Positions 17,682 to 28,367 of a DNA stretch of 64,000 bases are shown here, in pieces; position 1 is the stretch's first letter; each line of letters starts with the position of its first letter. The stretch is taken from assembly GCA_028285525.1 (NCBI GenBank), contig JANQOZ010000027.1:124001-188000 (forward strand), in the 5' to 3' direction. This stretch comes from Lysobacterales bacterium (GTDB lineage: Bacteria > Pseudomonadota > Gammaproteobacteria > Xanthomonadales > SZUA-38). The translations under genes were made by a program, and so were the position numbers. Below the pieces are notes generated by a model. That model searched no databases. It saw only the letters and a list, made by a program, of their open reading frames with translations, and had not been told where the DNA came from.

Positions 17682-19058
17682 ATGATGCTGACTGCCTTAG
17701 CAGTGTACGTGCTAGCCCAACTCGCCATTTCGGTGTGGGCGGCACGGAAGACGAAAAGCGCCACCGACTATCTCGTAGCCGGCAGATCGTTAGGCTCGGT
17801 CTCCATTGGCATCTCGGTGTTTGCAACGTGGTTCGCCGTGGAAGGAATCGTGGCAACCAGCGGTGCCGTGGCGTCCGAAGGGATTCCCGGAGCGCTTTTT
17901 GATCCGATCGGACTTGGGGTCGGCATACTACTTTTTGGAATTCTCGTGGCGGGCCCTATTCGACAGGGAAAGCACGTGATGCTGTCAGGTTTTCTTGGCG
18001 CGCGGTTTGGCGGTATCACCGAGGAACTTGCCGGCGTCATCGTCTGCATGTCGGCGATCATCTGGTCCTCGGTCCAGCTGCTGGCTCTTGGACTGCTGCT
18101 CGAGTCTCTGACTGATTTGTCGCTAACGTCAGCGCTCGCCATTGCCACGTTCCTGGTCCTCGCCTATACGCTACTCGGTGGACTTTTGGGCGACGTCATC
18201 ACCGACGTTGTTCAAGGCTTTGTGCTGGTTTTGGGGCTCGCCATCACGCTCGGGCTCCTGATTGAGGTTGCCGGCGGGCTTGAGACCGTCGTTGCCGGGA
18301 TTTCACTGGAGCAGGTCTTTCCTCCAGATCAAAATGCTTTGACGGGATTTGAAACGCTTTTTGCCGCCCTGGCCGCATCGGTTGCGGGCACCGAGCTGGC
18401 CGGGCGCACGCTCGGGGCCCGGTCCCCGCGTGTCGCCAGGAATGGCGCGATCTTTGGAGGCCTGCTTTATCTGGCCGTAGGCATTATGCCGGTATCGTTT
18501 GGACTGATCGGGCCACAGCTCGGGGTAGAGCTTCCGACGGGTGACGGCTATCTGCCGGCGATGATCGAAGCACTGTTACCAACCTGGCTTCGAATCATTC
18601 TGACGGGTGCACTGCTTTCAGCGATTTTCTCGACCATCGATTCCGCCCTGCTGGCCGTATCGGCGGTGGCCACCCAAACCGGCTATCGGCGACTTAGACC
18701 CGATGCTGACCCCGAAGAGTGTCTAATGGCCGCCCGAGTTGCCACCGTCATTGCCGGGCTGGTGGCATTTGCCATTGCGGCGTCGGGTGAGTCAATCCGA
18801 GCACTCGCCATCCAATCGGCCTCCGTCGGCGGCTGCATCCTGGTGCCGCTGCTACTGGGCGTACTGACCGGCTCAAAGGGCCGCTGGGGCGCGCCCGTCT
18901 CGATCATCACCGGCTTTGTCCTACTGCTGATCCTGGAATGGATTCTGGAGGTAGCGGGGGCATTTGTGCTCGCAATCCTGGGAGCGCTTCTCGCCTATGG
19001 CGCAGCCGAAATGCTTCGGAATCGGATCGCACCCAGCACCCGATCAGCGTCGTCTTAG
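17682..19058 (+). CDS. Sodium:solute symporter (SSS) family transporter
   Basis: 458 residues with about 12 to 13 hydrophobic helices and the SSS core patterns (TDYLVAGRSLG after TM1, FATWFAVEGIVATSG, and the LLSAIFSTIDSALLAVSAV segment late in the protein). The ATG at 17682 has GGAG 10 bases upstream. These inner-membrane proteins couple uptake of sugars, amino acids, nucleosides or carboxylates to sodium; this one cannot be assigned a substrate. It has no obvious operon partner and lies just left of the insertion-sequence-interrupted attachment site. Confidence 0.85.
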   Translation: MMLTALAVYVLAQLAISVWAARKTKSATDYLVAGRSLGSVSIGISVFATWFAVEGIVATSGAVASEGIPGALFDPIGLGVGILLFGILVAGPIRQGKHVMLSGFLGARFGGITEELAGVIVCMSAIIWSSVQLLALGLLLESLTDLSLTSALAIATFLVLAYTLLGGLLGDVITDVVQGFVLVLGLAITLGLLIEVAGGLETVVAGISLEQVFPPDQNALTGFETLFAALAASVAGTELAGRTLGARSPRVARNGAIFGGLLYLAVGIMPVSFGLIGPQLGVELPTGDGYLPAMIEALLPTWLRIILTGALLSAIFSTIDSALLAVSAVATQTGYRRLRPDADPEECLMAARVATVIAGLVAFAIAASGESIRALAIQSASVGGCILVPLLLGVLTGSKGRWGAPVSIITGFVLLLILEWILEVAGAFVLAILGALLAYGAAEMLRNRIAPSTRSASS

Positions 19059-19140
19059 CGGACCGCGGGACAACACGAAGACCACCTCGGCCAGCTCGAA
19101 TCGAAGCCGGCTATGCGCCCATAAGCTGCTAAGAAAAAAG

Positions 19141-20438
19141 TGTGCTTCCCGGCACATAGGTAACGGCTTATTCCGGGCACATAGGTTACACATTTCAGCA
19201 TTTGAGGAGGTTCCTCGAATGCCTTGGAAAGAGTGTAGCCGTATGGATGAAAAGCTTCGTTTTGTGGCTCGCCTTTTAGAGGGCGAGAAGATGGCAGTGG
19301 TTTGCCGCGAGTTTGGGATCTCGCGGAAGACCGGATACAAAATCTTCAATCGGTATAAGGAAGAAGGTCTACGGGGTCTGGAAGAGCGAGCCCGTAACCC
19401 ATATCGACATCCCAACAAACTGCCCTTTCAAGTTGAGAGCGCCATTCTCCGGATCAAGAAGCAGTATCCCGACTGGGGAGCGCCCAAGATTCGCGATAAG
19501 TTGAAGAAGCTCTATTCATCGATTCGACCACCGGCGGCGAGCACGATCCACGCCTTATTGGATCGACATGGCTTGGTGAAGCGACGCAAACGGCGCCGCC
19601 ACAAGGCTCGTGGGACGCCATTGAGCAAGGGTCTCGAGCCCAATGCCCTTTGGTGCGCGGACTTCAAAGGCGAGTTTCGTCTAGGCAATCGGAAGTACTG
19701 CTATCCGCTAACGATTACGGACTATCGCTCACGGTACCTGCTGTCGTGCGAGGCATTGGAGTCAACCAAGACACCGGGCGCCACGGCAGTTTTTGAGCGG
19801 ACTTTCAAAGAGTTCGGGATTCCAGAAGCCATCCGCACCGATAACGGCACACCGTTCGCCTCACCTCACGCACTGTTTGGATTGAGCCGATTATCCGTCT
19901 GGTGGCTGCGCCTGGGCATCGCCATTGAACGGATCAAGCCAGGACACCCTCAGCAGAACGGCCGTCATGAGCGTATGCACCTGACACTCAAGAAGGAAGC
20001 GACCAAACCGCCCAGCTTCAACTTTCTGCAGCAGCAGGATCGGTTTGACGAGTTTCAGGGGGTATACAACGACGAACGACCCCACCAGGGCCTGAACGGA
20101 CTGTATCCCGGCGAAGTGTATACACCTTCACCGCGACCGTACCAGGAGCCTGACCTGCCTGAATACCCACTTCACGAACGGGTGATCCGCGTCACGCAAT
20201 GCGGCCGAATCTGCATCGGTCGACGCAAAATCAACCTCAGTACCGTGTTTGCAGGCCAATTTGTTGGGGTTCGGGAAGAAGCTGACGACGTCTGGCTGGT
20301 CAGCTTCATGGAATATGACATAGGATTCTTCGATCGACAGGACGACCGGGTGGAACCAGTGGGCCAAAACCCATTCGCCCCAAAAGTGTTACCTATGTCC
20401 TCGGAATAAAGTGTTACCGATGTGCCCGGTAAGCACCC
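19141..20438 (+). mobile_element. IS481-family insertion sequence
   Basis: About 1.3 kb. Left end TGTGCTTCCCGGCACATAGG and right end (reversed) GGGTGCTTACCGGGCACATC are imperfect inverted repeats. Each end holds two copies of the motif GGCACATAGGTAAC (left about 19151-19164 and 19175-19189; right 20391-20429 in reverse), probably transposase binding sites. One transposase gene with a DDE core fills the interior. A target duplication of at most 2 bp (AG) can be seen, so exact ends are uncertain by one to three bases. Confidence 0.88.
19219..20409 (+). CDS. IS481-type transposase
   Basis: 396 residues from the ATG at 19219, which has a strong GAGGAGG 9 bases upstream. An N-terminal HTH (EGEKMAVVCREFGISRKTGYKIFNRYKEEG) is followed by an rve-type integrase core with Asp in LWCADFKGEF, Asp in IRTDNGTPF and Glu in HPQQNGRHERMH, giving the DDE triad. 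The length is normal for IS481 transposases and the frame is intact, so the element may be active. It catalyses cut-and-insert transposition of the surrounding IS. Confidence 0.95.
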   Translation: MPWKECSRMDEKLRFVARLLEGEKMAVVCREFGISRKTGYKIFNRYKEEGLRGLEERARNPYRHPNKLPFQVESAILRIKKQYPDWGAPKIRDKLKKLYSSIRPPAASTIHALLDRHGLVKRRKRRRHKARGTPLSKGLEPNALWCADFKGEFRLGNRKYCYPLTITDYRSRYLLSCEALESTKTPGATAVFERTFKEFGIPEAIRTDNGTPFASPHALFGLSRLSVWWLRLGIAIERIKPGHPQQNGRHERMHLTLKKEATKPPSFNFLQQQDRFDEFQGVYNDERPHQGLNGLYPGEVYTPSPRPYQEPDLPEYPLHERVIRVTQCGRICIGRRKINLSTVFAGQFVGVREEADDVWLVSFMEYDIGFFDRQDDRVEPVGQNPFAPKVLPMSSE

Positions 20439-20492
20439 AGCGAAAATTGGTGGGCCCTGTAGGACTTGAACCTACGACCAAGGGATTCACGT

Positions 20493-20893
20493 TCTAACCA
20501 AAATCAACTTCAACTCAATTATTTCAATCAGTTAGCGGCGGCCGCTCAATCACCCGCTACTTTAAACGTCAGCGTACGAGTGCTCGATTGGACCAAACTC
20601 GGCTCAATACTCGTCTACACAAACTAGACACTCGAAAAGGTTGTTAGGGATCGTCCCTGTCTGGCCAGACATCGCGCGATCTAGCTATGCAAACAGTCAA
20701 CATCCCATGAAGCGACAACCTAGCCAAGCGTCAAACGCCAAGGTGAGTTACTTGCCCATATTGCAACTCTCTGCTTTTACTGCGTTTTTCTCTTAAGACA
20801 ATAGGGTCCGATTACATCCACTGCGGGTATCGACAAAATGGTGTTAAATATCGGAGAAAATGTCTGAAGCTAAAAGTGACACGGAAAAGTAGC
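20493..20893. other. Non-coding left arm of the integrative element
   Basis: No gene is supported here. Directly after the repeat, TTC TAA gives the stop that would end the integrase reading frame in the excised circle. A ten-codon reading frame with GGAG (20860-20892) ends one base before the ATG of the next gene and could be a leader peptide. Confidence 0.4.
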
Positions 20894-22882
20894 ATGTTGG
20901 TTCAAATTCGTTCGTTTAGAACAGTTCTTGGTCGACTGGCGAGGAAGTTGGTAAGCGTTGTCCGATGGCCATTCGCGGCACTTGGCAGTTTTTGGGAAAC
21001 GCGAAAAAACGCCTGTTACAGCTGGCTGAGAGGCCGGAGAGCGACTCTAGCAGCACAAGCTGCCGAAAGCTCCGCTATTGCGGGAAAAGCAGCGCGCCAC
21101 TTCGCAAGGACTGTTCTCCTGCTCCCAGAGTTTTTTTTCGGCCTGAAGCGGCTGAATCAAGCGGTCGTAGTCCTTATAGTAGGAGGAGCGACTTTTGCAA
21201 CAGTGGCGAGCGGGTCTTGGTTTGAGCAGCGCTACGGGTTGGGGCCAGGTGAATTCGCACTCAAGCGGCTGTCCTGCTCCAGAATGGCGCCAAAGTGGGA
21301 CTTCGTACTGAATTCGTGTACCAATCTCACCGAAAAACAGACAAGAACTGCCAAACAAATTGAGCGGAATATCCTTCAAGATCAAATCAATGCCGAAGAC
21401 GCTGCACGAGATGCAGAGCACGAGAAAAGAATACGTGATCTCGCCGCGAACGGCGCCAAGCGTGACCAAAAAGCTCAAGAAGAAGCGGAGAGAACCGCTT
21501 TGCGGGACGCGCAGTTGGAAATGCTATTGGCGTCGAACGGGCGAATCGAGAAATTGCTCGCAGAGAGTGTGAATTTGCAACGAGATCAAAACCTCGCTGT
21601 AAAAACCCTTAACGAACACTTGAGCGGTGCCCGGTCCATGTCGAAAACGGAGCAGACGACGCTAGTAGCCGAGCTATCGGACAACCGTGCGAAAGATATC
21701 GAGTTGAGAAAACGTTATGCGGACGAGATGAAAGAGAATGAGAGGCTCCGTGCTTCTATTGCTGAAGAAGCGCAGCTGACCTCAACGATGGCGACCGCCG
21801 ATAGCAACAATATTCAGTCCAGTCAGTCAGGTGACACTGAGCTTGACCTAATAGAAGCGGCCAGCTTGTACACGACTCCGCCACTACTACCCTTACCCGC
21901 ACGAGGATCGGCAGTCGTTCACGTTTCGAATGGAACACAAATTGATGTCAACGATGCGAGCCCTGAGGATATACGGGCATTGCTGGACGAGATTTTCGCT
22001 TCTACCGATGGTGTGGCGAGCTTATCAAGCTATAACGCGAGCGATTCAGATGCCATACACCAGAATGCACCGCGGATCAGCGATGATGGCGCAAGCCTAG
22101 ACCCAACAGCGCTTCTGGAGACGCAGAATGAAGCCCTAACGTCTCAACGTGCGCTGACAAGCGCACAAATCGAAGATCTTCGAGCGCGAACGGCCGACAG
22201 AATTCAAGACTCCGCTGAGGCTCTTGAAACCACGCAGGAGCAATACGCACGACGACGTGACGAACAACTCAGCGAGTTTGCTGACTTACCGAACAGCCCA
22301 GCGACTCCAACTGATTTCGACATCGGCGAGGAAACCACGGTCCCTCTGGAGTCACCGCGACCGTTTGATAATGAGTCTTTGGCCAGCGATCTTGCCGAAC
22401 GCATCGAAAATGCAACTGAGACAACGCTCAATCGAAGTGGCTTCGCATTCGAAGCTGAGCCCGATTTCGCGAATCCAACAAACCCTGGAAACCCGCCGCC
22501 TCCTGGTCAAGCAGGCCAGTACGGTGGACGGGCGGGTGCGCTACGGCAGGAATACTTTGGTTTTTCTCAGGAAGACTATGGCTTTTCCAACCCGCAAACT
22601 GGCTTTGACGATTTTTCGCAAGACGGTTTTGACACGACATCGCCGGTAAGCCCCCAATTGCGTCCACAGATGCTCTATGGCGTTGACCCGAGTTCGCGAA
22701 TGCTGAATGGCTCATCGAATTTGCTTACGCCAGGATTTGACATGCCACAGCAAAATTGGGGTACTTTTCGAAACGGGGTAAATCCCGGCTCATTCGATTT
22801 CACCTCACCTATGAATAATGGTGTGATTTCTCCACATCTCAATCAGCCAATAATCAATACTCAACGAGGCGACGATAACTAA
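20894..22882 (+). CDS. Unknown membrane-anchored coiled-coil protein (island cargo)
   Basis: About 662 residues from ATG 20894 (GGAAAAG upstream); GTG 20876 would add six. The N-terminus is basic and amphipathic. One strong membrane helix follows (QAVVVLIVGGATFATVAS, near residues 90-110), then an acidic/basic coiled-coil stretch (about 140-310; AKQIERNILQDQINAEDAAR, DAEHEKRIRDLAANG). The second half is low in complexity and rich in Asp, Ser, Asn, Pro, Phe and Gly (repeats of GFSQEDYGFSNPQ, GFDDFSQDGFD). No family is recognised. It is convergent with the nuclease/NTPase gene. The codon after the stop continues in frame for 37 more sense codons. It could be a surface or stalk-like protein; its function is unknown. 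Confidence 0.6.
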   Translation: MLVQIRSFRTVLGRLARKLVSVVRWPFAALGSFWETRKNACYSWLRGRRATLAAQAAESSAIAGKAARHFARTVLLLPEFFFGLKRLNQAVVVLIVGGATFATVASGSWFEQRYGLGPGEFALKRLSCSRMAPKWDFVLNSCTNLTEKQTRTAKQIERNILQDQINAEDAARDAEHEKRIRDLAANGAKRDQKAQEEAERTALRDAQLEMLLASNGRIEKLLAESVNLQRDQNLAVKTLNEHLSGARSMSKTEQTTLVAELSDNRAKDIELRKRYADEMKENERLRASIAEEAQLTSTMATADSNNIQSSQSGDTELDLIEAASLYTTPPLLPLPARGSAVVHVSNGTQIDVNDASPEDIRALLDEIFASTDGVASLSSYNASDSDAIHQNAPRISDDGASLDPTALLETQNEALTSQRALTSAQIEDLRARTADRIQDSAEALETTQEQYARRRDEQLSEFADLPNSPATPTDFDIGEETTVPLESPRPFDNESLASDLAERIENATETTLNRSGFAFEAEPDFANPTNPGNPPPPGQAGQYGGRAGALRQEYFGFSQEDYGFSNPQTGFDDFSQDGFDTTSPVSPQLRPQMLYGVDPSSRMLNGSSNLLTPGFDMPQQNWGTFRNGVNPGSFDFTSPMNNGVISPHLNQPIINTQRGDDN

Positions 22883-23097
22883 ATCGAGGAGCTCTTCCGA
22901 GAGGAAAGCGATGGTGGCCAGTATCTCGGCGAAACTGTGTTTCCGATGCGTCCGGTACGCGCCGGAACTCTAGGACTTGATCCTGCAATCAATTAGCGCT
23001 GCTCCCTCGGGGCTGTCGCTAAAACAGACAACAATCCGCAACAGCTCGAATGGGCCACTCAGGAGTAGCTCGCTTTTATCGCCCTCAAACAGCGGAA
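22883..23097. other. Intergenic region between convergent island genes, with in-frame readthrough tract
   Basis: After the TAA of the membrane protein the same frame stays open to 22996 and reads protein-like residues (IEELFREESDGGQYLGETV). It has no start codon with a ribosome site of its own at its beginning. Either the protein was once longer or this is a remnant. Nothing else is seen. Confidence 0.3.
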
Positions 23098-26019
23098 CTA
23101 GGTCCCGAGTATCCGCTTGACCTGCAACCCTTGACCGTTTCTTGATGCTCCAATCTTTGCCTTAAAGGTGGCCCCTACTGCCAATGTATTGCGCATCCCA
23201 GCTGGAACTACTGAATAATGAAAGAAAGCATCATCTCGACCGCCCTCGATTCTTACAAAACCGTAACCTCGACTTTCAAACACTCTAATTACGTAGCAAG
23301 TTGCAGTGCTTACTGTGGTTGGATCAGTCTCAATTTCATGAATCTTGCTGACAAATAGACCTCTTGGACCCTGTTCAACGTCGCACAAGATGTCGTCACC
23401 GTCGTCAAGCTGATCCAGCCTAGAATTTCGAAGCCGGTCACCGTGCACGAAAACGCGACCGTCCACATCATCGACTTCTACGAAACCAAATTTTTTCTCT
23501 GGGTCGTACCAGTCCACAGTACCTATGACACCGCTAGCCACCAGCCCTAGATTTGGGGCGTCCGGAACCTTGTAGTCTTCGCCTCCATCCGGTGGTGCCG
23601 CCATCTGGTCGATTTTTTCGCTTAGCTCCGCTTGACAAGAATACTGAGCATGACCCGGAGGAATCATGAGATGACTTCCATCTTCAGCGAGCAGGTGTTG
23701 AGAGAACAACCTCCGTATTTGTATCATTCGACCCGAAAGATCGGATTTCGCGCGAGCTAGGCTTCGAATTTTGCTAGCAACTTCCTCGTTGGCCAATGGG
23801 GTGGTTATCGCCATTTGTTCGAAAAAAACCTCGTTCTCGATTGCTAGGCGGAGATGGGCCCTACCACTGAAAGAAATGGTTACTCGCTGGCCATGCGAAA
23901 GTTTCCTAACTGAAGGATCGTACGCCTCGATTAAGCCGGCATTCAGCAGAGAGAGGAGGGTGGTATCCAGTGCCACCTCCGAAGCACCCATAGCCTCGAC
24001 ATATCCAAATATCGACTCAATCGTTAAGTATCTGTCCTCGACGTCGCGATTACTTATTCGAGTTAAATCGAGAAACGCCAGAATTCGAACGGCCAGCAGC
24101 GGAGACTGAAGGATTGAGGGTTCGATGCGAAATACAGGGAAGATCTCGTGCGCGTCTATTTGCCTGTAATGATCGTAATCACCCTTCATGAGCGCATTCA
24201 TGAACTTGATGTAACTTGGCGTAATTGGCTTTCGAGTTATGAACGAAGTCAACAGTTCTTCAATCGCGAAAACCGCGGAGGTGATAACTCGTTTGGACAG
24301 GGCCAGAGTTCTGCGAATGTTGTAGTTTGCGAGCTCTCCTAGTGTTTTCGAAGCATACTCATGGTCTACAAAAACACTCTCAACTGCCTCGGCGAACGCC
24401 CCTAGCTCCTTGATTGAAATTCGAATTCCCTTTCCAGCAAAATACTGCTTGCGATGGTCTTTGGACCATTTTTCAGATAACTGGGCTTTCAGAAACTCAA
24501 TTCGCTTTCTGAATACTTCTCGCGGTGGAGGGGTAGGTAGATAAAAAGACCGAGATTGATAGATCCCATAGATGTCAGTTTTCGAGAAAGACCACGCAGA
24601 TTTGTCCGTAACTGGAAAGATCAGCAAGCAATGATTTGCCTCGCGGCGAAGCGCTTGCGCGAACTGAAAAATGTTCCTCTTTATGTCAGAAGAGAACTCA
24701 TCTGTGTTGTCCAACAACATTATTGGGAGTAGCTGTCGATTCGTGACCACATCTTTGAGCAATCTCCGCAAGTACCCTTCGCGGTCTGTCTCGACTGCTT
24801 TTTCCAATATTCTCCCGAACTTTTCCCGGAACGCAGCTTTATCCCGTCTGTAAAGCTCGGCGTCTACTCCTTTTACGCGCCTAAGGTATTCATGGTGATA
24901 AAGACCCTGCAAATCCCCCCATTCTGGAATCCCGTCATTGAATAGGCTGCTTTCGAGTCCCTCAATGATAGCCTCGGTCAACCACACCAGAATAGTATCT
25001 TCCCGTCCTGTGCAATTTAGACAGTCTATTCGGCACACAAGGCAGCGCTTTCTAATAGCTGTCGATAGAGTTTGTTTGAAAAATCTTTCGAGAAACGTAG
25101 TTTTTCCAGCACCAGTGGGTCCAACTACGAATACCGTCTGCCCCCCATCAACATCCACGGCGGATTCAACTAGTGTGCGCAATTCCGCGTTTACATCCTT
25201 TTCCGCCGGGGCAAGATTTCCAAGGACATTCGCTGTGAGTTTCTCCATCGCGAAATCGGCTATCCTGCTCTCGCGCGTCTCGACGAAACAGTTGATCAGA
25301 AAGTCGTCGTCTTGGTCTCCGGTCAGGGCGCTAAAAAACTTGTCGAAAACTGGATCTAGATCAAACGCCAAGGGAGATTTTTGGTCTAGCTTTACTTCAC
25401 CCTCTTCAACTGCCGGGACAAGCTTTCGCTCGAGATACGTTCTTTGATTGTGCAAGTGATCAAATAATCGGTTGTAAGTCCTCTTCTGAAACTCAGTCTT
25501 ACTAAGCAACTCCCAAAACGTTTCAAAGTCATTCAAGATCGAACTGAAAGACGGGAAAACAAACGCCTGCTTATCCCGGTAGTTTGCGCCAGGAACGAAG
25601 GTCTTGAAGACTATCCACACTAGGCCGTCTGTCAGGACTGCTACGCTGAGACCAGCAGGAGCTGCGTACCCAGCAGCCTGTTTTATACCCTCAAGCGCAG
25701 GTTTTAAGCCCGCCCCATTGGGTTTGAGCTTTCTGACTTTGTCCGTTGCTGTGCCGCCCAGTGGGATTGCCCCAACTCTCTTGGCTTCGACCACCAATGC
25801 TGGTGCCTCTCGGTTGGACAGGATGAAGTCACAAAAACCATCTTCCACCCGTCGCTCGGAACCGATATCCGTTACCGACCATCCGAGGCACTCAACGAAA
25901 ACGCGAGTAATGATTTGTAATTTTGCGTCCTCCTCAGAGAGGATTTGATTCATGTTTTCGGCTACGGCAACTGCCAAGTCTTTCGCTTTGGAGAACGCCG
26001 CATCGAGCAAGCCGCTCAT
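23098..26019 (-). CDS. HsdR_N-like nuclease + P-loop NTPase + two cold-shock domains (candidate defence protein)
   Basis: 973 residues from ATG 26019, which has GGAG 8 bases upstream; a GTG at 26073 has no better site. Domain order: a restriction-type PD-(D/E)xK fold at about 30-160 (ERRVEDGFCDFIL with Asp64, LVVEAKRVG with Glu78 and Lys80, then IKQAAGYA); a P-loop NTPase with Walker A GPTGAGKTT (about 300-308) and Walker B LLPIMLLDNTDEF (Asp near 437); a helical region; then two cold-shock (OB) domains, about 827-895 (KKFGFVEV, VFVHG) and 907-973 (RGYGFVRI, AFFHY). The known families suggest nucleic-acid sensing coupled to cleavage. Antiviral function is inferred from architecture and the mobile context. 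Confidence 0.75.
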   Translation of the reverse strand: MSGLLDAAFSKAKDLAVAVAENMNQILSEEDAKLQIITRVFVECLGWSVTDIGSERRVEDGFCDFILSNREAPALVVEAKRVGAIPLGGTATDKVRKLKPNGAGLKPALEGIKQAAGYAAPAGLSVAVLTDGLVWIVFKTFVPGANYRDKQAFVFPSFSSILNDFETFWELLSKTEFQKRTYNRLFDHLHNQRTYLERKLVPAVEEGEVKLDQKSPLAFDLDPVFDKFFSALTGDQDDDFLINCFVETRESRIADFAMEKLTANVLGNLAPAEKDVNAELRTLVESAVDVDGGQTVFVVGPTGAGKTTFLERFFKQTLSTAIRKRCLVCRIDCLNCTGREDTILVWLTEAIIEGLESSLFNDGIPEWGDLQGLYHHEYLRRVKGVDAELYRRDKAAFREKFGRILEKAVETDREGYLRRLLKDVVTNRQLLPIMLLDNTDEFSSDIKRNIFQFAQALRREANHCLLIFPVTDKSAWSFSKTDIYGIYQSRSFYLPTPPPREVFRKRIEFLKAQLSEKWSKDHRKQYFAGKGIRISIKELGAFAEAVESVFVDHEYASKTLGELANYNIRRTLALSKRVITSAVFAIEELLTSFITRKPITPSYIKFMNALMKGDYDHYRQIDAHEIFPVFRIEPSILQSPLLAVRILAFLDLTRISNRDVEDRYLTIESIFGYVEAMGASEVALDTTLLSLLNAGLIEAYDPSVRKLSHGQRVTISFSGRAHLRLAIENEVFFEQMAITTPLANEEVASKIRSLARAKSDLSGRMIQIRRLFSQHLLAEDGSHLMIPPGHAQYSCQAELSEKIDQMAAPPDGGEDYKVPDAPNLGLVASGVIGTVDWYDPEKKFGFVEVDDVDGRVFVHGDRLRNSRLDQLDDGDDILCDVEQGPRGLFVSKIHEIETDPTTVSTATCYVIRVFESRGYGFVRIEGGRDDAFFHYSVVPAGMRNTLAVGATFKAKIGASRNGQGLQVKRILGT

Positions 26020-26144
26020 AAGACCGACTCCGCCCTGTCGGCTCGAAGTTTGAACGTATTGCCGCGGGCACACCTCGACCTACAAGTAGCGGAGGGTAAT
26101 CTCATGCGAATATTTCTCGTTCCATGCTAAAGCCTGCACCTGTT

Positions 26145-26178
26145 GCAAGGCCCCCGGATCGCCACTTGCTGGGCCTTT
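26145..26178 (+). terminator. Rho-independent terminator
   Basis: Arms AAGGCCC and GGGCCTT separated by about 16 bases are followed by a run of six T on the plus strand. No plus-strand gene now ends just upstream, so it may be left from a lost gene. Confidence 0.55.
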
Positions 26179-26225
26179 TTTCCAATTGTAACCGCTCCTA
26201 TTGGGCCACGATTGTTGGTAGTTGT

Positions 26226-26259
26226 CGCGTCACTACAGCCCGAAATCTGTAGTGACGCG
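26226..26259. repeat. Perfect 13-bp inverted repeat
   Basis: CGCGTCACTACAG and CTGTAGTGACGCG with an 8-base loop (CCCGAAAT). There is no T-run, so it is not a standard terminator. It may be an operator for the island's HTH protein, an origin hairpin of the excised form, or a recombination site. Confidence 0.6.
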
Positions 26260-26719
26260 CTTTGTCAAGCGTTTACCCCGGCTACTTCTACCCGGACTTT
26301 TCGCGGGACGAGCGAGTGATCTGCTGATACCGTACAAATCACAACCGGCGCCTTAGCGGAACTGAGGCACTTTGGGACTTCGGTCCTAACGCGGCTTTGG
26401 CCGGGTTCTAATTCGCCGCAATGCGGCTCTTTCAATTCGATTTCGATCAACTTCTTAAGGAGGTCAATACGCTTTTGCCACTACTCAATTTCGCCAGCTC
26501 GCAACTATGGCTGGTCATAAGGGCGGACAATATGTCCTACGGGCAGCATCCGCCTGGCCTGATACTCAGGCCCGTCAGGTGACTGGGATTGGTGTCCCAC
26601 AGACCATCACTGCCTCGGCAGGGATTCGTTTTTCTCGAATGCGGATCGGTCAGAAACACTAACCAACTTGATTTAGCACCATAGAAGACCTGACACCCAC
26701 TTCTAATTCGCTCCCTACC

Positions 26720-27043
26720 GTGGGAGTTGCCGAGGCAGCACGGCTCCTTCATTGCTGTAGCGAGACCGTCAAGCGTCATGCGCGGGCTGGCCGATTGCCG
26801 GGTCGTCGCGTCGGGCGGTCATGGGTATTTCTGCGCGACGACGTGCTGGATTTCGTGCGGGGCTATACTGGCCCAGAGCGGTCGCCGCGCCGATCAAGAA
26901 GGAGAATGCAATCATGCAAATCTACCAACGAGGGAAACGCGGCACCTGGTGGGTCCGGTTCACGGCGCCGGATCACCGACGCATACACCAAAGCCTTGGG
27001 ACTACCGACAAAAAGCAGGCTGCGGAACTCGCAGACAAGCTGA
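26720..27043 (+). CDS. HTH (excisionase/MerR-like) DNA-binding protein
   Basis: The first about 50 residues (VAEAARLLHCCSETVKRHARAGRLPGRRVGRSWVFLRDDVLDFV) match the HTH_17 excisionase-type fold, including the wing with GRSW and the closing FLRDDV. Start GTG 20 to 30 bases from any clear ribosome site is tentative. The frame runs on to 27043, overlapping the integrase gene by 130 bp, and its last part is basic and probably little constrained. Small HTH proteins directly before a tyrosine integrase usually act as recombination directionality factors; that role is inferred from position. Confidence 0.65.
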   Translation: MGVAEAARLLHCCSETVKRHARAGRLPGRRVGRSWVFLRDDVLDFVRGYTGPERSPRRSRRRMQSCKSTNEGNAAPGGSGSRRRITDAYTKALGLPTKSRLRNSQTS

Positions 27044-28131
27044 AATCGGAATCTTGGCGAGTATGCCGGTTGGGCGAACGCCCGCGCCGCACGTGGCAGG
27101 AGGCCGTCCTGCGATTTTTGGGTGAGACTCAGCACAAGCGGAGTCAGGACAAGGACATTGCTCGGCTGAAATGGCTGGACCGATATCTAGGCGCGCGACA
27201 CCTGGATGAGGTCACCGCCGACGTTTTGGCCACGATCCGATCTGACATCCTGGCGGGCAAAACGCCTCTGGGCGGGAACGCCCCGGCCAACCTCAATCGC
27301 TATCTGTCCGTGATTCGCACCATTTTGCGAAAAGCGGTCTTCGAGTGGGAGTGGCTGGATCGGGCTCCGGTCATCCGCCCGATGAAAGAAGGGGCCAGAT
27401 TGGGTCACGACATTCGCTGGCTCACCTATGAAAAAGCGATGAGGCTTTTGGACACACTGGATAGCCAACGACTCACCCACACCGCCGATAAGGCTCGACT
27501 CACCTTGGCAACCGGACTGCGGGAAACCAACGTCACCGGGCTGTCCTGGGATCGGGTGGATCTGTCTCGGCACGCGGCGTGGATCGGCGGCCAGCAGTCC
27601 AAGTCGGGCCGAGCGATATCGGTGCCTTTGAACGACGATGCAACGAAGGTTCTTCAGCGGTGGCGTCACCGCCACCCGAGCCGGGTCTTTGTCTTCAAGG
27701 GAAAGCCGGTGGCTCGGGCCAACACCAAAGCCTGGCGAGACACACTCAGATCAGAAGGGCTCAGGCCACACGATGGCCGCCACCCTGACAACTTCCGTTG
27801 GCACGATCTGAGGCACACCTGGGCGAGCTGGCACGTGATGGCGGGAACCCCGCTGGAAGTGTTGCAGCGCCTGGGCGGTTGGGCCAGCCTGGATATGGTG
27901 ATGCGGTACGCTCACCTGGCGCCTGGCCATATTGCTCGCTATGCATCCAATGTCAGTGGCCCAAACTTGACCCAAGTTGCCGGAGGGGTCTCGAACCCAA
28001 CGCGGCAACGCGCCTATAAACCACTGAGAAAAAAGCGAAAATTGGTGGGCCCTGTAGGACTTGAACCTACGACCAAGGGATTCACGTGCCCCGGTGTTTC
28101 CACCGGGCGTTGGACTATCTCACCACCCTGA
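26914..28131 (+). CDS. Tyrosine-type site-specific integrase
   Basis: 405 residues from ATG 26914 (AAGAAGGAG upstream). An Arm-type N-terminus (QIYQRGKRGTWWVRFTAP) and a SAM-like core-binding domain precede the catalytic domain: Arg in ATGLRETNVTGLSW (about 201), HDLRHTWASWHV (about 297, His and Arg), GGWASLDMVMRYAHL with the nucleophile Tyr near 331. It should catalyse insertion at the tRNA. The last about 30 residues (LVGPVGLEPTTKGF and on) are encoded by the tRNA 3' exon and intron read on the opposite strand. In the excised circle the frame would end TTC TAA directly after the repeat. Confidence 0.93.
   Translation: MQIYQRGKRGTWWVRFTAPDHRRIHQSLGTTDKKQAAELADKLKSESWRVCRLGERPRRTWQEAVLRFLGETQHKRSQDKDIARLKWLDRYLGARHLDEVTADVLATIRSDILAGKTPLGGNAPANLNRYLSVIRTILRKAVFEWEWLDRAPVIRPMKEGARLGHDIRWLTYEKAMRLLDTLDSQRLTHTADKARLTLATGLRETNVTGLSWDRVDLSRHAAWIGGQQSKSGRAISVPLNDDATKVLQRWRHRHPSRVFVFKGKPVARANTKAWRDTLRSEGLRPHDGRHPDNFRWHDLRHTWASWHVMAGTPLEVLQRLGGWASLDMVMRYAHLAPGHIARYASNVSGPNLTQVAGGVSNPTRQRAYKPLRKKRKLVGPVGLEPTTKGFTCPGVSTGRWTISPP
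28027..28087 (+). repeat. attR: right copy of the attachment repeat
   Basis: 61 bp covering, on the minus strand, the last five bases of the group I intron (ACGTG), the complete 40-base tRNA 3' exon with CCA, and about 16 bases downstream (ATTTTCGCTTTTTTCT). It reconstitutes the tRNA 3' end next to the intact 5' part, and matches attL without mismatch over 20439-20492. Confidence 0.92.
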
Positions 28132-28367
28132 GCTCGGTTGCCAGGGTGCGGGACGCTCTAGCCTGTGATTAAGGGCGCTCGGCGGCGGGCGCCAGCCCTC
28201 AGGTAGTCTCTGCACCTTCCGCGGGTGTACCCGCGGCTTGGCTCAGGGTTGCCAGCGGCCTGCTGCCGTGAAGGTTTCCCTGAATTCATCCCGTTCATCC
28301 TGCCTGTTACCAGACAGGCGCACCATGAAGATGAGTCCCCTGCTCTAACCAACTGAGCTAAGGGCCC
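28043..28367 (-). tRNA. tRNA-Ile(CAU) interrupted by a group I intron
   Basis: The 5' exon 28367-28331 reads acceptor GGGCCCT, TA, D arm GCTC...GAGC, A, anticodon stem GGGGA and CTCAT. The 3' exon 28082-28043 reads AA, TCCCT, variable TGGTC, T arm GTAGG TTCAAGT CCTAC, acceptor AGGGCCC, A, CCA. Joined, the exons give a normal 77-base cloverleaf with anticodon CAU and loop CTCATAA. The body resembles tRNA-Ile2 (lysidine-modified, AUA-reading; for example the GACTCATAATC loop) more than elongator Met, and the intron position is the same as in Azoarcus tRNA-Ile(CAU). Without modification data Met cannot be fully excluded. Confidence 0.93.
28083..28330 (-). ncRNA. Group I intron (IC3-like) in the tRNA anticodon loop
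   Basis: 248 nt between U36 of the anticodon CAU and A37. Conserved core elements appear in order: P (AATTCAGGGAAACC), Q (CCCTGAGCCAAGCC), R (GTGCAGAGACTACC), S (GGTGAGATAGTCC), with GACTA/TAGTC forming P7. P2 is CCTGTCTG-GTAA-CAGGCAGG, P6 CCGCGGG-TACA-CCCGCGG, P8 CACCCTG...CAGGGTG, and P9 CCCGGTG-GAAA-CACCGGG. The exon CAU can pair with GUG near the 5' end to give the U-G splice site, and the last base is G. It carries no homing endonuclease. The Azoarcus intron is 205 nt, so this one is somewhat larger. Self-splicing is expected, not shown. Confidence 0.93.

Follow-up and report, generated by a model that had tools for sequence, protein, structure and literature searches.

A 973-residue protein encoded in the window, the 64,000-nucleotide stretch of a Lysobacterales genome analysed here, is probably an undescribed phage-defence protein. 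It joins a predicted nuclease, an ATPase and two cold-shock domains (CSDs) in a single chain, and its gene lies on a small integrated element. We consider defence against phages or other mobile elements by an NTPase-controlled nuclease, carried as a single mobile gene, the likely function of this candidate. The preliminary description of the sequence had already suggested phage defence, and this is now backed by the exchange of the gene for the IetAS system in a sister species, by the placement of two homologues in a P2 prophage hotspot, and by defence genes that neighbour other homologues. The component domains are known already. We found their order in none of PADLOC (2023), Pfam, NCBIfam and the open papers, in agreement with the preliminary description, which knew of no defence system so arranged; later libraries or subscription papers could describe it.

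Domain architecture

The open reading frame is intact (Table 1). We prefer the ATG at 26019 as its start over an upstream GTG at 26073 because the starts of homologues agree with it. AlphaFold2 models the whole protein with a mean pLDDT of 84 and a pTM of 0.66, so the placement of the domains relative to each other is uncertain. No model in PADLOC, Pfam or NCBIfam spans the full length of the chain. Nevertheless, profiles, AlphaFold2 and conservation in an alignment of 62 full-length sequences, from which all conservation counts below are taken, uphold the earlier calls of a nuclease, a P-loop NTPase and two C-terminal OB folds, and the predicted structures contain both the nuclease and the OB folds, on which that description had staked its case. 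Chance occurrence of the motifs can be rejected, as the nuclease and Walker motifs are invariant across the 62 sequences.

Table 1 Features of the window and of the corresponding element in the sister species
Feature	Position	Strand	Details
Focal gene	23098..26019	(-)	973 aa; HsdR-like nuclease, ORC/Cdc6-like AAA+, winged-helix/helical segment, two CSDs
Nuclease domain, residues 1-200	25420..26019	(-)	Conserved E29, D64, E78, K80, Q114, Y118
Predicted catalytic E78-A-K80 codons	25780..25788	(-)	E78 and K80 invariant in 62/62 sequences
AAA+ ATPase domain, residues ~218-514	24478..25368	(-)	AAA_16/AAA_22 E ~1e-6; ORC/Cdc6/TnsC/RdrA/CED-4 folds
Walker A, G300-PTGAGK-T307	25099..25122	(-)	G300, G303, G305, K306 invariant
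Walker B region, P432...D437-N-T-D440	24700..24726	(-)	P432, D437, N438, D440 invariant
Helical/winged-helix-like segment, residues 568-805	23605..24318	(-)	Secondary structure; ORC/Cdc6 alignments extend to residues 728-805
Cold-shock domain 1, residues 825-896	23332..23547	(-)	Pfam, predicted structure, fold match
Cold-shock domain 2, residues 904-972	23104..23310	(-)	RNP motifs better conserved than those of CSD1
Integrated element, 7.6 kb	20439-28087		Bounded by perfect 54-bp direct repeat
Left attachment repeat, 54 bp	20439..20492		Perfect copy of 28034-28087
Right attachment repeat, 54 bp	28034..28087		Within 3' half of tRNA-Ile(CAU)
Second cargo ORF, 668 aa	20876..22882	(+)	Convergent with focal gene; no Pfam match
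Tyrosine integrase	26914..28131	(+)	Pfam PF00589 E 2e-28; start MQIYQRGK, ORF open from 26821
Right-end module	26249..27082	(+)	Upstream region and integrase N-terminus; 94% identical in sister species beside IetAS
tRNA-Ile(CAU) gene	28046..28367	(-)	Exons by eye 28331-28367, 28046-28082; Rfam intron 28090-28343
IetAS in sister-species element slot	L081 11108-14663

The nuclease domain is modelled with a pLDDT of 92.8. The Asp-Glu-x-Lys motif noticed earlier is present as D64...E78-A-K80, and its three named residues never vary. Neither do Q114 and Y118, which form the QxxxY motif of HsdR/RecB-type nucleases and were missing from the preliminary description; with the nearly invariant E29, the domain contains the full active-site set E...D...ExK...QxxxY. 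The best match among solved structures is HsdR 3h1t (Z 11.9, rmsd 3.6, 119 residues, 24% identity; Foldseek E 6.5e-4), and the HsdR of EcoR124I also shares the fold (Z ~7.9). In the sequence-profile comparison with the PDB, 3h1t again comes first, with an alignment across QxxxY and a marginal E (0.055). Pfam HSDR_N matches 18 of 52 family members (best E 1.9e-7), the window protein itself giving no match to this profile. Mitoribosomal proteins that match the domain with Z ~8 share a common nuclease-like fold and are uninformative on function. From sequence and modelled structure, the N-terminus belongs to the HsdR-type PD-(D/E)XK nucleases, with predicted activity.

By the same kinds of prediction, an ORC/Cdc6-like AAA+ ATPase occupies the middle of the protein, with winged-helix-like segments after it. 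The Walker A and B motifs reported earlier are real in the sense that the key residues of both are invariant across the family alignment. Structure comparison places ORC/Cdc6 first (Z ~13-14), followed by RdrA of RADAR (8hr8, Z 12.4), TnsC (7mcs, Z 12.1) and CED-4 (Z 11.7), with sequence identities to ORC/Cdc6, TnsC and RdrA of merely ~10-18%. The best PADLOC match is mad8 (E 2.1e-6), confined to the P-loop region, with no Avs model among the matches listed. An McrB profile is absent from the profile matches of the window protein and of the family members; Avs and McrB chains are likewise absent among the structure matches listed, which is no proof of different folds. Searching BFVD structures returned mainly clamp-loader AAA+ proteins, plus one phage HSDR_N protein. 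A match of residues 405-478 to neutrophil lipocalin was set aside, being short, low-scoring, inside the ATPase and in contradiction to the predicted fold.

Both C-terminal OB folds prove to be CSDs: Pfam CSD (PF00313, E 1.1e-17) matches two stretches, and CSD1 superposes on the RNA-bound CSD of YBX1 (Z 11.5, rmsd 2.0, 73 residues). Across 22 distinct tails, the Y/F-G-F core is retained in both copies, and the second motif, F-F-H, is better retained in CSD2 and degenerate in some copies of CSD1. CSD2 also weakly matches the retron Se72 effector family (NCBIfam NF038236; E 5.5e-4, best relative 2.3e-12). In one Acinetobacter pair, dN/dS is 0.16-0.21 for the CSDs versus 0.05-0.08 for the other domains; despite this faster change relative to the core, the CSDs are still under purifying selection. 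Their pace may reflect diversification of a sensor or merely weaker constraint.

The integrated element and its cargo slot

The gene had been placed on a tRNA-linked island, and we could delimit this island by a perfect 54-bp direct repeat whose right copy lies inside tRNA-Ile(CAU). The element contains the 668-aa ORF, the focal gene and the tyrosine integrase. The GC content of the focal gene is ~0.46-0.51, compared with ~0.61-0.65 just past the tRNA end of the element. A group I intron of ~248 nt (Rfam RF00028, E 5.9e-15) interrupts the anticodon loop of the tRNA, and ARAGORN reports no tRNA because this intron splits the gene. The attachment repeat overlaps the end of the intron by ~5 nt; the split tRNA gene is the integration site, and the split tRNA/intron region is ~86% identical in the sister species. 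Outside the element, a transposase with an integrase core (IS481-like, 18964-20409, plus strand) stops ~30 bp before the left repeat.

The product of the 668-aa ORF has a hydrophobic N-terminal segment and a coiled-coil-like, Gln/Glu-rich middle. Searches of 41 related genomes and of plasmids found no relatives of it, and a two-gene system is not supported, given that this ORF is without relatives and that homologues of the focal protein occur without it. Five related integrases (L100-L104, 60-68% identity), from the same and related genomes, each adjoin a different tRNA gene (Lys, Pro/Arg, Met, Thr and Met), and on this sequence evidence the integrase family has spread over tRNA sites. Those elements show no obvious defence cargo where the cargo is readable.

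The strongest single argument for a defence slot in this element comes from the sister species (genome G369, the other genome of the genus), in which the same element ends stand at the same tRNA site. Its right-end module is 94% identical to that of the window over 834 bp, and its left repeat with ~60 bp of adjoining sequence is 88% identical. Between these shared ends the cargo consists of IetA (E 2.8e-142) and IetS (E 1.4e-277), the last base of IetAS lying ~30 bp from the shared right-end module. Published lists of anti-phage systems include IetAS (PMC10732053; PMC9958689), and because it fills the same slot, the cargo slot of this element appears to be a defence slot. As a system IetAS, an AAA+ ATPase with a subtilisin-like protease, is not homologous to the focal protein; what the two have in common is their place as cargo. 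In the sister species the integrase is cut down to its N-terminal part, with an unrelated ORF resembling an exported protein in its place.

Family distribution and genomic neighbourhoods

We gathered 55 relatives from one scan of genome contigs, 6 from viral contigs and 7 nearly full-length ones from plasmids. Two CSDs are present in 24 sequences of the tree, all named ones from Alpha- and Gammaproteobacteria. Two planctomycetotal sequences have a single CSD and are set apart from the two-CSD rows by the tree; one further sequence is broken off by a contig end within CSD1. Members from cyanobacteria, Acidobacteriota, Chlorobiota, Bacteroidota, Omnitrophota and many proteobacteria carry no CSD. 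Many of these end instead in an Arg/Lys-rich tail of 19-47 residues (25-42% R+K), which is a possible alternative grip on nucleic acid; such tails were seen in L034, L037-L048, L051, L052 and L057, mostly alphaproteobacterial. The deep forks of the tree are weak, so repeated gain of CSDs and ancestral presence followed by loss are both compatible with it.

This distribution does not bear out the earlier proposal that the CSDs sense infection. Of the 62 full-length sequences, about 35 have no CSD and 2 have one. The nuclease and ATPase motifs of the CSD-less sequences are those of the CSD-bearing ones, and the core is therefore expected to be triggerable by means other than CSDs. Judged by sequence, the CSDs represent an add-on specific to certain lineages, with the look of a targeting module.

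The family spans at least seven phyla, and within the class of the window genome the gene occurs in 1 of 369 genomes. Plasmid-borne copies are found in many genera. The core sequence on an A. baumannii plasmid shows no difference from that in an A. ihumii genome, and near-identical cores occur in Pseudoalteromonas and Vibrio. Among phage records we found no close DNA relatives of the prophage-borne gene L064, and among E. coli genomes none of L066; the window protein likewise had none in phage records. The nuclease-ATPase core also has more distant relatives (22-29% identity; L105 3947-6451 and L106 3944-6388) on Klebsiella, Serratia and Enterobacter plasmids, where they are annotated as hypothetical or P-loop proteins.

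Several homologues are found in phage and defence contexts. In a P2-like prophage (L064) the order is terminase, gpQ (portal), focal homologue and gpA (replication protein), as in P2; the same protein adjoins gpA in L065. The gpQ-gpA interval of P2-like prophages has been reported as an anti-phage hotspot (PMC9122126). In L066 the homologue separates the tail-completion genes of a P2-like phage from its baseplate genes, and in L067 it adjoins the J tail operon. One locus (L010) is a defence island, with IetAS, AbiEi/AbiEii and PDC-M54A beside the homologue. Others adjoin a type I restriction-modification system (L007) or a C5 methyltransferase (L016), or lie, by our reading of the sequences, within a type I restriction-modification locus (L054). 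Other homologues are on plasmids or beside integrases, and several neighbourhoods resemble ordinary chromosome. Of the 18 CSD-clade neighbourhoods scanned, only 3 contain clear defence genes, a raw count with no background rate beside it, and a description as a universal defence-island gene is not supported.

Candidate mechanism and relation to known systems

How the protein might act is suggested by its structural relatives. The AAA+ module would bind ATP and assemble on nucleic acid, as ORC/Cdc6 and TnsC do; we infer this oligomerisation from fold kinship only. The winged-helix segment and the CSDs would take part in substrate choice: as a phage transcribes or replicates its genome, single-stranded RNA or DNA becomes exposed, and these modules would grip it. 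This CSD-gripping step, taken alone, is one that we would sooner doubt than assert. Assembly would then join the nuclease domains, the DNA would be cut, and either the invader would be destroyed or the cell stopped. The outcome may be that invader DNA is destroyed or that infection is abortive, and the CSDs may sense or merely anchor; the sequence is compatible with each of these. In its most specific form the model is tentative: a new single-protein defence family in which an ORC/TnsC-like AAA+ ATPase is licensed by CSDs on phage single-stranded RNA or DNA, the HsdR-type nuclease then cuts, and swapping the C-terminal grip (two CSDs, one CSD or an Arg-rich tail) retargets the core.

About as tentative as this specific form, and likewise within defence and overlapping with the explanation we favour, is abortive infection in the manner of STAND proteins, in which the NTPase is freed by a protein or nucleic acid of the phage, the chains oligomerise, and the nuclease degrades host and phage DNA alike. 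CED-4/Apaf-1 and RdrA are among the fold matches, and weak nSTAND_NTPase5 and NACHT profile matches occur in many members. The faster evolution of the CSDs is as expected of a sensor, and relaxed constraint would look the same. Against it speak the top fold matches, which are to the DNA-loading ORC/Cdc6 proteins. Avs proteins combine an N-terminal PD-(D/E)XK effector, an NTPase and a long C-terminal repeat (TPR-like) sensor. The focal protein resembles them in having effector and NTPase in this order in one chain, but what follows the winged-helix segment in its family is a pair of CSDs or a short basic tail, with no TPR-type repeat sensor. RADAR differs in that RdrA acts with the deaminase RdrB; a deaminase is absent from both the element and the focal chain.

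Rather unlikely is a different trigger, again within defence and overlapping with our preferred explanation, by which the winged-helix/AAA+ region recognises modified or foreign duplex DNA, much like type IV restriction, and the CSDs add non-specific affinity. An HsdR-type nuclease adjacent to an NTPase would suit this, one homologue is annotated as 'Predicted type IV restriction endonuclease', and the branch without CSDs retains all nuclease and ATPase motifs and has the Arg/Lys-rich tails, as if any nucleic-acid-binding tail sufficed. Yet the profile search of family members found no domain that reads modified bases, and the ATPase resembles ORC/Cdc6/STAND proteins, unlike the GTPase McrB or the SF2 motor of HsdR. 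HsdR of type I enzymes (3h1t, EcoR124I) has the same nuclease fold and D...ExK...QxxxY motif, but it combines them with an SF2 helicase motor and with HsdM/HsdS, in place of which the focal protein has the ORC-like AAA+ domain and CSDs; there is no helicase domain in the chain and no M or S gene in the element. CoCoNuT type IV restriction systems, predicted RNA-targeting defences, fuse CSD-like OB folds to an NTPase (PMC11090510). They differ in their McrB-type GTPase, in an N-terminal CSD with coiled coils and in separate nuclease subunits; the focal protein and its relatives gave no McrB match, and the element adds no more than the 668-aa ORF, itself without a Pfam match, and the integrase.

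It is improbable that the protein works for its carrier (in transfer, target choice or stability) in place of phage defence. Integrative elements, plasmids and prophages carry the gene, and TnsC is among the fold matches, but it has no constant partners across hosts and is dispensable for mobility, because IetAS replaces it in the sister element. From ORC/Cdc6, TnsC and RdrA alike, with which the focal ATPase has the AAA+ fold and Walker motifs in common (and with ORC/Cdc6 also the winged helix), it differs by fusion to a nuclease and CSDs. A housekeeping role in DNA repair or the cold response, which the CSDs and ORC-like ATPase might recall, is hardly credible for a gene so sporadic, horizontally moved, on mobile DNA and without conserved neighbours.

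CSDs occur in other conflict and defence systems, namely TOTE/TALON systems with TPR-CSD proteins (PMC12458937) and retron Se72, whose cold-shock effector is the weak match of CSD2. Here there is no reverse transcriptase and no TPR, and the CSDs are fused to a nuclease and an ATPase. CSDs have so far been seen in CoCoNuTs, TOTE/TALON and retron Se72; if confirmed, the protein would link them to a core of nuclease and ATPase in which their role as single-strand sensors is testable by domain swap. It would also show an ORC/Cdc6-like ATPase serving as a defence switch, and would add a compact one-gene defence family found in at least seven phyla, represented in this bacterium on a small tRNA-borne element with an exchangeable slot for defence cargo.
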